A stretch of DNA of 33,943 nt from an uncultured Bacteroidales bacterium (GTDB lineage Bacteria; Bacteroidota; Bacteroidia; Bacteroidales; UBA932): positions 1 to 33,943 of the forward strand of contig CAMZIP010000004.1 of the NCBI GenBank assembly GCA_947307265.1, in the 5' to 3' direction. Below the pieces are notes generated by a model. That model was not told where the DNA came from and did not search any database. It was given only the letters and a program-made list of their open reading frames with translations. The position numbers were made by a program, and so were the translations under genes. This document shows, piece by piece, positions 20,401 to 25,362 of this stretch; positions within the stretch are counted from its first letter, which is position 1, and each line of letters starts with the position of its first letter.

Positions 20401-21524
20401 CGGTGACAAATACCGGAAGCGAGATCCCTCAGAGCCGCTTCAAGACCATCTTCGAACCTTTCAACAATGAGGGGAAGACCCATCTTGAATTCGAGTCCCA
20501 TACCGGACTGGGACTAGCCATCGTCCAGGCGCTCGTCACGGATATGAAGGGTGTCATTTCCGTGTCCTCGTCTGACAACCGGGTGAGTTTCACGGTGCTT
20601 TTGCCTTTAGTGCCGTGCACCGGGACCGACGGACATACAGACACGTCTGAGGCAGATGATGATACGTACGACTATGCGGCGTCCGAGATCGATGCGATGA
20701 TTTCTGAAATCGATGAGATGGAGGAGGACGGCAAGCATATCCGCAAGACATACGATATCCTGGTGATCGAGGATGACAAGCAGCTGCGCAGTTACCTGGA
20801 ACAGCGTCTTTCGGCACATTACAACGTCTACACGGCATCCAACGGCGAAGACGGCATCGCAAAAGCCGGGAAAATCCTCCCGAATATCATCATCACGGAC
20901 CTGCTGATGCCCAAGGTGAACGGTTTCGACGTCTGCCGCCGGCTGAGGACCGGAATGAAGACCTCCCACATTCCCATCATCGTGCTGTCCGCGACCGGAG
21001 GGGATACAAGTTTCAAGATTGAAGCCCTCGAAAGCGGTGCCAATGTCTTCCTGGACAAGCCGGTGGACATCGACTTCCTCCTGAAGCAGATTTCCAACCT
21101 CATCAATAGCCAGATCAAGCTCAAGGAACTCTACAGCAGGCGTTTCGTTGCGGAGCCTTCGAAGATCGCATACAGTTCCGTCGATGAGGAGCTTATGAAG
21201 AAGGCGGTGGGCTTTGTCGAGAAGAATTACGATAATGAAAACTACGGCGTCGAGGACTTCGTGTCCGATATGGCCATATCAAGAACCCGTCTTTATCAAA
21301 AGATTACGGACCTTACCGGAATGAGCATCAAGGCGTTCATCCTGGATATCCGCCTGAAAAGGGCGAGCCAGCTCCTGCGGGAGACTGAGTACACGGTGGC
21401 GGAGATTTCCACGATGACCGGCTTCGCCAGCCCGAAGTACTTCAGTGTCTGCTTCAGGCGTCATTATGGTCAGTCTCCGACAGAATTCAAAACCAATGCA
21501 GATGCAGAAAAGACCCTCAAATAA
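17439..21524 (+). CDS. Hybrid two-component system regulator (HTCS): periplasmic Reg_prop/Y_Y_Y sensor, histidine kinase, receiver and AraC HTH
   Basis: Repeated beta-propeller motifs (GGINSISKDKLGRIWFTG, SVWSIFEAADGEVWVGTYGG, ASGRVWIGTEGGGI); TM SPVAYLIYILFIAVIIWGIWSW; HisKA NEFFTNISHDLKTPLTL (His codon 19932-19934); HATPase VFSNLFSNAVKYS and HTGLGLAIV; receiver DILVIEDDKQ...IIITDLLMPKVNG (Asp codon 20898-20900); HTH VEDFVSDMAISRTRLYQKITDLTGMS...GFASPKYFSVCFRRHYGQSPTEF. Confidence 0.97.
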   Translation: MYHPRLISSILAAALLPFAAFCSYAFDTTDYRFHRMPETSYYGGINSISKDKLGRIWFTGTDALYMYNGISFEQVSTENPYPGVWLDYRSVQALPNGDLTVSSNVGLFRFDYSRHSLHLEVKGEISRTEVDADGALWFIHDNVLARYRDGELTAFPYSDPAVVPNYSHVTAGHVFISSGADVWKLDPADGSYAFFGSYHGSVSETGISDIIWHDGFFYLLSERNGLYECHPDGSIRRHFDGIDGISKQLFVDARGIFWIATQYGIVFIDPVSGERKLKRSEPDDFFSLPNDSVWSIFEAADGEVWVGTYGGRLAYQSFLDDDAGLVHPSAGGLSHPIVSAFAEDASGRVWIGTEGGGINCWSKEEHSFVDYRIVNDWKTDFSQVKRLKCVGNDLYIASFHGGISILDTSTGRLSALPVRDPASGSAIPVYDFELDGRKGIWLSNPDMDFMYWNRSGERVEKVYGVLEDGSQLRLRVESFYATEDGRLVLATHRGVVVLDGASRRVIRTYLVPGEDVRQNYFNCHCRVGETETWFGTMGSGVVRLADNGSFKLLEDAEGNTLAGRRVFSIQNDIRSGDVWISTDDGLYVYKAGVSLFEKARIGSGGSCGAFYIRSGYALADGTILFGGTNGLIAFNPARIERNTQKPRVYFNSFKVNNQLMNPGESGSPLRYSIEYYGMPEAGKKSIRLDNNQSNFEIGFACDSYLDASGNDYSYRMVGVSDDWIILPAGQQYVRFNNLPAGRYRFEIKAANNVGLWGDEVSTLSLRIRPHFLLSPVAYLIYILFIAVIIWGIWSWSTKRKMLEQQLELEIEKQENLRELTRLRNEFFTNISHDLKTPLTLVVDPLKQLEKEIPEEAPYHKLVVMIGRNIARIQRMLTQLLQFRRIESVKPPVNAVPGDLVKFVDSLFSLFEFYANKKGIETEFMPWTDSYMAYFDTDMIEKVFSNLFSNAVKYSSGEEYVGVRIAPAPAEEIPQGTEVDANAKWLMFTVTNTGSEIPQSRFKTIFEPFNNEGKTHLEFESHTGLGLAIVQALVTDMKGVISVSSSDNRVSFTVLLPLVPCTGTDGHTDTSEADDDTYDYAASEIDAMISEIDEMEEDGKHIRKTYDILVIEDDKQLRSYLEQRLSAHYNVYTASNGEDGIAKAGKILPNIIITDLLMPKVNGFDVCRRLRTGMKTSHIPIIVLSATGGDTSFKIEALESGANVFLDKPVDIDFLLKQISNLINSQIKLKELYSRRFVAEPSKIAYSSVDEELMKKAVGFVEKNYDNENYGVEDFVSDMAISRTRLYQKITDLTGMSIKAFILDIRLKRASQLLRETEYTVAEISTMTGFASPKYFSVCFRRHYGQSPTEFKTNADAEKTLK

Positions 21525-24500: not shown

Positions 24501-25362
24501 TGAGCTGGGGCTGTGGTTCAACCCGAGTGCCCAGAACGACTTCGAGGACTGGGAGAAGGACGTCGAGGCCGTCGTGGGACTGTTCAATGCCTATGGTATC
24601 GAAGTCTTCAAGATTGACGGCGTCTCGATCCCGAACAAGAAATCGGAGGAAAACTTCCGTCGCTTCCTGGATGGGGTGCTCGCCCGGACCGGCAATCAAG
24701 TGGTGTTCAACCTCGACGTGACTGCCGGTCGCAGGGGAGGCTACCATATGTTCGGCGAATACGGGAACATCTTTCTGGAGAATCGTTACACGGACTGGCG
24801 CAACTATTACCCGTACTGGACGCTTCGCAACCTTTGGCAACTTTGCCCATATGTGCCGGCTGAAAGGCTGCAGGTGGAGTTCCTCAACAAATGGCGGAAC
24901 GCGGACAAATATGAGGGGAGTTCATTCGCTCCGCAAGGATATGATTTCAGTTACGTTTTCGCCACGACGATGGCCGGTCAGCCTCTCGCCTGGTTGGAGG
25001 CCTCCAACCTGCCCGAGGAGGCTTATCTCATCTCAGAACTCGTAAAGGAGTATGTCAATGTGGCGCCTTCCTTCCACGAGGGCACCATACTCCCGATCGG
25101 AGATGAGCCCTCAGGACGTGCCTGGACGGGTTTCCAGTCCATACAGAAGGGCAAGGGCTACGTCATTGTCTATCGGGAAGACAATCCGAAGGTCAAGGCA
25201 GGAATGCGCACCTGGTTCCCTGAAGGGACATTGGTCAAATTCGGCCTTGTGCTTGGAGATGGCGCTGATTTCACCTCTGTCGCCGGCAGAAACGGTGAGG
25301 TGGAGTTCTCCCTTCCCACAAGGAACAGTTTCGCACTTTATCGTTACACAATTGAAGAATAA
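21496..25362 (+). CDS. Exported multidomain protein: N-terminal CBM-like domain, FAD-dependent oxidoreductase (FAD_oxidored type) and C-terminal GH36/clan GH-D-like domain
   Basis: Start [27 protein letters not shown] overlaps the HTCS 3' end by 29 nt. [33 protein letters not shown] (jelly-roll-like); [85 protein letters not shown]; then [70 protein letters not shown]. Confidence 0.87.
   Translation: [1288 protein letters not shown]
22072..23370 (+). other. FAD-dependent oxidoreductase domain (approximate limits)
   Basis: Dinucleotide-binding GGGIAG at the start and AGRD...G near the end, both intact; no frameshift. Confidence 0.85.
23400..25359 (+). other. GH36-like (clan GH-D) domain (approximate limits)
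   Basis: Beta-rich N-subdomain, then [13 protein letters not shown]...FQIDDGW...FKIDG (candidate nucleophile Asp codon 24616-24618)...ENRYTDW (candidate acid/base Asp codon 24793-24795). Confidence 0.75.

Follow-up and report, generated by a model that had tools for sequence, protein, structure and literature searches.

Does the joining of a flavoprotein to a glycosidase in one polypeptide mean that a sugar is oxidized before its bond is cut? This question is raised by a locus on a 33,943-nucleotide stretch of DNA from an uncultured Bacteroidales bacterium (contig CAMZIP010000004.1; "the window" means this whole stretch). A first-pass annotation had proposed that a FAD domain encoded there may prepare the substrate of the GH36-like domain fused to it.

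Architecture of the fusion protein

As that annotation had described, the frame at 21496-25362 (+) is uninterrupted and encodes 1288 amino acids. From the N to the C terminus, it contains a signal peptide, a β-sandwich, a full-length FAD_oxidored domain, and a complete GH36-fold domain:

21496..25362, + strand: FAD oxidoreductase-GH36-like fusion protein, 1288 aa (translation, Pfam, and locus comparison)
21496..21579, + strand: Sec-type signal peptide, residues 1-28 (assigned by inspection: basic start, hydrophobic stretch, AA end)
21595..22011, + strand: N-terminal β-sandwich domain, residues 34-172, weakly golvesin C-terminal-like (model and orthologue profile match)
22075..23262, + strand: FAD_oxidored domain PF12831, residues 194-589 (Pfam; fold nearest to FrdA/SdhA/flavocytochrome c3/GidA)
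22090..22107, + strand: dinucleotide-binding motif GGGIAG, residues 199-204 (motif search)
23347..23415, + strand: fusion junction, residues 618-640; here the FAD protein's tail meets the mature GH36-like start, and the second signal peptide is gone
23416..25359, + strand: GH36-like domain, residues 641-1288 (β-sandwich, TIM barrel, C-terminal β domain)
24346..24357, + strand: DDGW, residues 951-954, substrate-binding motif of clan GH-D (motif search, alignment)
24607..24621, + strand: FKIDG, residues 1038-1042, with the presumed nucleophile D1041 (motif search, alignment)
24778..24795, + strand: ENRYTD, residues 1095-1100, with the presumed acid/base D1100 (motif search, alignment)

All motifs named in the first-pass annotation were located, among them AGRDIS at residues 543-548 and two longer strings of the FAD domain, of 10 residues at 228-237 and of 11 residues at 564-574. 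Neither a twin arginine nor a lipobox was seen in the signal region (residues 1-28). The jelly roll described as CBM-like held up in its fold, since residues 34 to about 165 form a predicted β-sandwich, but not in its family: the domain has no CBM match in Pfam, and Golvesin_C matches that of an orthologue weakly (3.4e-5, under the family cut-off). The AlphaFold model of residues 34-1233 has a mean pLDDT of 80.6 and a pTM of only 0.57, so the relative orientation of the domains was left unused. An antisense frame at 22000-23928 (-; 642 aa) has no Pfam match and was taken as a shadow ORF. No Rfam match or tRNA was found in the window.

The flavin half matches PF12831 over profile positions 1-409 of 416 (E 2.8e-67, 228.3 bits), in agreement with the annotated intact FAD domain. 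The domain is complete, its motifs are invariant across the relatives, and we infer that it binds FAD. Sequence-profile comparison with solved structures gave a match confined to the Rossmann motif. For the model of this half (pLDDT 83.5, pTM 0.84), the nearest PDB folds in Foldseek are fumarate reductase/succinate dehydrogenase flavoproteins, flavocytochrome c3, GidA, and urocanate reductase; at a TM of about 0.25, this weak ranking is informative mainly for the absence of GMC proteins from the top list. The GMC family appears neither among the Pfam matches of the fusion protein nor among the top 50 folds of its flavin half, and an identity as GMC sugar oxidase was therefore rejected. No family match to a GH4/GH109 NAD-dependent glycosidase domain was found in the protein. 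Flavocytochrome-like electron transfer was likewise rejected, because a CxxCH motif and a twin arginine in the signal region are both missing. The literature searched names no reaction for the PF12831 family; dehydrogenation of an oligosaccharide is our guess from the family name and the fold.

In the C-terminal half, Melibiase (PF02065) matches residues 896-1013 (profile 23-129 of 347, E 2.4e-9) with 37.1 bits against a curated cut-off of 27, yet only 107 of the 347 profile positions are covered. The profile of this half matches only GH36-type α-galactosidases in the PDB (best 4.5e-7). With the AlphaFold model, the best 22 Foldseek matches are all GH36 α-galactosidases (E 3e-21 to 2e-16), followed by GH97, and the three-part fold of β-supersandwich, TIM barrel, and C-terminal β domain is present. 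When its profile was compared with those of four canonical GH36 proteins, the probability was 94% (E 9e-8), the alignment being firm at DDGW and loose around the nucleophile and the acid/base. We use the label GH36-like because of this fold match and profile comparison, which agree with the earlier description as clan GH-D-like. DDGW, K1039, D1041, and E1095-W1101 (including D1100) are invariant in all 50 GH36-like sequences. This half is a remote member of the clan with a putative α-galactosidase activity. It shares the three-domain fold (Foldseek E 3e-21 to 1e-20), the DDGW motif, a putative KxD motif, and the Melibiase score above cut-off with LaMel36A (2xn0), AgaSK (2yfn), and AgaA (4fnr). 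It differs from canonical GH36 enzymes in its 10-15% identity, its partial Pfam coverage, and the fused flavoprotein, and reads NTWGDRSQD where canonical members read N-x-W-E.

Genomic setting and recurrence of the pair

The window encodes SusC, SusD, SusE, GH2, GH3, and GH88-like proteins and a hybrid two-component regulator (HTCS), and thus contains a SusC/D polysaccharide utilization locus (PUL):

5553..8567 and 8579..10234, + strand: SusC and SusD (Pfam)
17439..21524, + strand: HTCS of the PUL, directly upstream of the fusion and overlapping its start by 29 nt
25367..29347, + strand: GH2-GH3 fusion protein, about 1326 aa, directly downstream of the FAD-GH36 fusion

The GH2 half of the downstream protein is of the gene type that trails the FAD/GH36 pair in most relatives. 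A GH2 of the window is close to solved GH2 proteins named as galactosidase/glucuronidase. Unsaturated glucuronyl hydrolases are among the nearest solved relatives of the GH88-like protein. Related loci also carry a GH97 retaining α-galactosidase (NF053844, above cut-off), the mannonate dehydratase UxuA, an acetyl esterase, and a glucuronoyl-esterase domain. This enzyme set suggests that the target is an esterified plant glycan that contains glucuronate and has α-galactosyl-type ends; naming the exact glycan would be conjecture.

Other proteins of this PUL are composite as well. At 25367-29347, a glucuronidase-type GH2 is joined to a BglX-type GH3 in one ORF; in 50 related loci, the GH2 has a gene of its own (about 596 aa). 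A third fusion, at 1587-5522, is a GH3-PA14 protein whose C-terminal extension (about residues 830-1311) appears homologous to the proteins at 11540-13102 and 13108-14679. These two are secreted and about 520 aa long, and proteins of their kind occur in 53 related loci. Neither Pfam nor the PDB gives a significant match (DUF4832 reaches E 0.2); with their glycosidase-like motifs GLGKWGE and EGGW, they are candidates for an unassigned glycosidase family.

How often the fusion recurs, which the first-pass annotation had proposed to survey, was determined by a scan of genome contigs. The scan gave 79 loci, 80 with the window, a sample biased to linked copies because the fusion was the query. Nine loci are fused, 45 hold adjacent same-strand pairs, 8 have the FAD gene without an adjoining partner, and 18 have the GH36-like gene without a FAD gene in the flanks. 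The same single-ORF architecture in nine loci and in an independently surveyed genome (G368) rules out an assembly artefact or frame error. The fusion is therefore real and recurrent, a new architecture made of known families; no PF12831-glycosidase system was found in the literature searched.

Of the 45 adjacent pairs, 42 are complete and three are truncated at a contig end (L042, L074, L075). Both ORFs of split pairs start with their own signal peptide. The median intergenic gap is 15.5 nt, with 50 nt or less in 35 of the 44 pairs measured and a 4-nt overlap in six; three pairs are about 800 nt apart, with a small gene in between. Adjacency is kept in Bacteroidaceae, Rikenellaceae, Muribaculaceae, Dysgonomonadaceae, and others, including the cultured strains Bacteroides acidifaciens DSM 15896 and Dysgonomonas hofstadii. 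Among 40 genomes of the window's genus, one carries the fusion and another a FAD relative, so the locus is sporadic.

In the fused proteins, a 12-residue string in the tail of the FAD protein leads into a 14-residue string at the start of the mature GH36 protein, and the second signal peptide is absent. Fused sequences form two separate clades on both the FAD and the GH36-like tree, the starred branches forcing two changes, and the junction measures 89 residues in one clade and 77-78 in the other. Because of the separate clades and different junctions, fusion most simply happened twice; a single fusion with later fissions would be the less simple course. The distances of the FAD and GH36-like proteins are correlated (r = 0.88 over 37 loci). 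Since this hardly exceeds the GH36-GH2 value (0.86), we rejected it as proof of a specific interaction; inheritance of the PUL as a unit may account for it. Taken together, the conserved adjacency, the two fused clades, and joint export within a PUL support a functional link of both proteins in one periplasmic pathway.

Possible roles of the two halves

We consider it most probable, at roughly 45%, that two independent periplasmic enzymes share as substrate one oligosaccharide containing glucuronate and galactose and were joined from neighbouring genes. The fusion would then be a periplasmic two-enzyme protein of the PUL. Its C-terminal half would hydrolyse an α-galactoside-type bond by the ordinary retaining mechanism, presumably with D1041 as nucleophile and D1100 as acid/base. 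The N-terminal half would be a separate flavoprotein that dehydrogenates a part of the shared imported oligosaccharide at an active site of its own, independent of the GH36 step. Ancestrally, the two would have been closely spaced neighbouring genes, which lost the second signal peptide and became one gene, most simply on two occasions. A precedent is RgAgaSK, in which GH36 is fused to another enzyme of its pathway, an ATP-dependent sucrose kinase instead of a secreted flavoprotein; its separated domains keep similar kinetics (PMC7688924), so fused GH36 domains can behave as they do alone. Four points speak against this reading. The literature searched names no reaction for this FAD family, and the distance correlation may be a matter of the whole PUL. 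Of 393 genomes of the order that were surveyed, 45 gave a match and 23 had a close FAD relative; only four of these 23 have a fused or adjoining GH36-like gene (one with a small gene in between), the others having it on the same contig (1), elsewhere (6), or not at all (12). Moreover, a Sec-exported flavoprotein in the periplasm of an anaerobe requires FAD loading and an electron acceptor.

Among the alternatives, all of them unlikely, the one that survives best is that the fusion serves only to keep the enzymes at a fixed ratio behind a single signal peptide, while they act on different molecules of the pathway. The two other composite proteins of the window, whose parts are found apart elsewhere, indicate that fusion is common in this lineage and advise caution in reading catalytic cooperation from it, and the distance correlation lacks specificity. 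Adjacency across so many families, however, exceeds chance PUL order.

Hardly less probable is that the flavin domain oxidizes the monosaccharide freed by its partner, such as galactose to a lactone or keto-galactose. This would fit the GH97 α-galactosidase of related PULs and the FAD proteins that adjoin a canonical GH36 α-galactosidase (L110) or a LacZ-type GH2 (L109). But FAD genes also lie beside rhamnosidases, GH43 and heparinase II/III-like proteins, and esterases, which leaves galactose without the role of common denominator.

Some FAD loci show further arrangements. Where a FAD orthologue has no adjoining GH36-like partner, the gene directly upstream encodes, in seven loci, a protein of about 820 aa without a Pfam match (60-67% identity; among them L038:7495-9966, L113:3571-6048, L115:11308-13776). 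Two and three tandem FAD relatives occur in L130 and L115, respectively.

Oxidation-assisted cleavage, the mechanism suggested in the first-pass annotation, is not supported, and we regard it as improbable. In its strict form, a keto sugar would arise in the flavin domain, and the GH36-like domain would cut this oxidized substrate exclusively or much better. What speaks for it is the pairing itself, conserved and seen in two fused clades, alongside the precedent of keto-sugar routes for C-glycosides in gut and soil bacteria, where flavin oxidation likewise precedes bond cleavage (PMC10646112). Those glycoside 3-oxidases are GMC enzymes that use O2 ahead of C-C bond cleavage, and known ones are GMC or NAD enzymes; here a PF12831 protein is paired with a hydrolase. 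The GH36-like enzyme also occurs alone, just as the FAD protein occurs with other partners. Of the 18 genomes whose GH36-like gene is unlinked, six have a FAD orthologue elsewhere, eight have remote matches only, and four (G434, G437, G438, G440) have no FAD match. Catalytic columns are unchanged in the enzymes of these four, no alignment column among 50 sequences separates GH36-like proteins with FAD neighbours from those without, and conservation falls on the usual GH-D residues. A relative of the GH36-like domain is encoded on a plasmid, at 11095-13167 of L100 (Haliscomenobacter plasmid NC_015513); genes for a Gfo/Idh/MocA oxidoreductase and a ThuA-domain protein lie nearby.

Just as improbable is a redox-neutral flavin domain (epimerase-, mutase-, or hydratase-like), which would need no electron acceptor. 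The protein has no haem motif, no electron-transfer partner gene was seen in the window's PUL, and the relatives are anaerobic gut bacteria, all of which would suit it; yet the match to UDP-galactopyranose mutase stops at the Rossmann part, and no mutase or hydratase is among the best folds. An anaerobic Bacteroidota module in which the PF12831 dehydrogenase oxidizes the very residue that the fused GH36-like domain removes, making glycoside breakage a redox process in some PULs, seems least probable.

Significance for PUL flavoproteins

PF12831 flavoproteins occur in many PULs. The protein described here resembles those of other Bacteroidota PULs in its full-length domain, its secretion, and its attached β-sandwich, and differs in belonging to a subclade that adjoins or is fused to a GH36-like enzyme. 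Adjacency and the two fused clades name the glycosidase partner of this subclade and therefore suggest a candidate class of substrates. If glycan oxidation proved true, PULs would break down glycans partly by redox chemistry of enzymes that belong to neither the GMC nor the NAD families.
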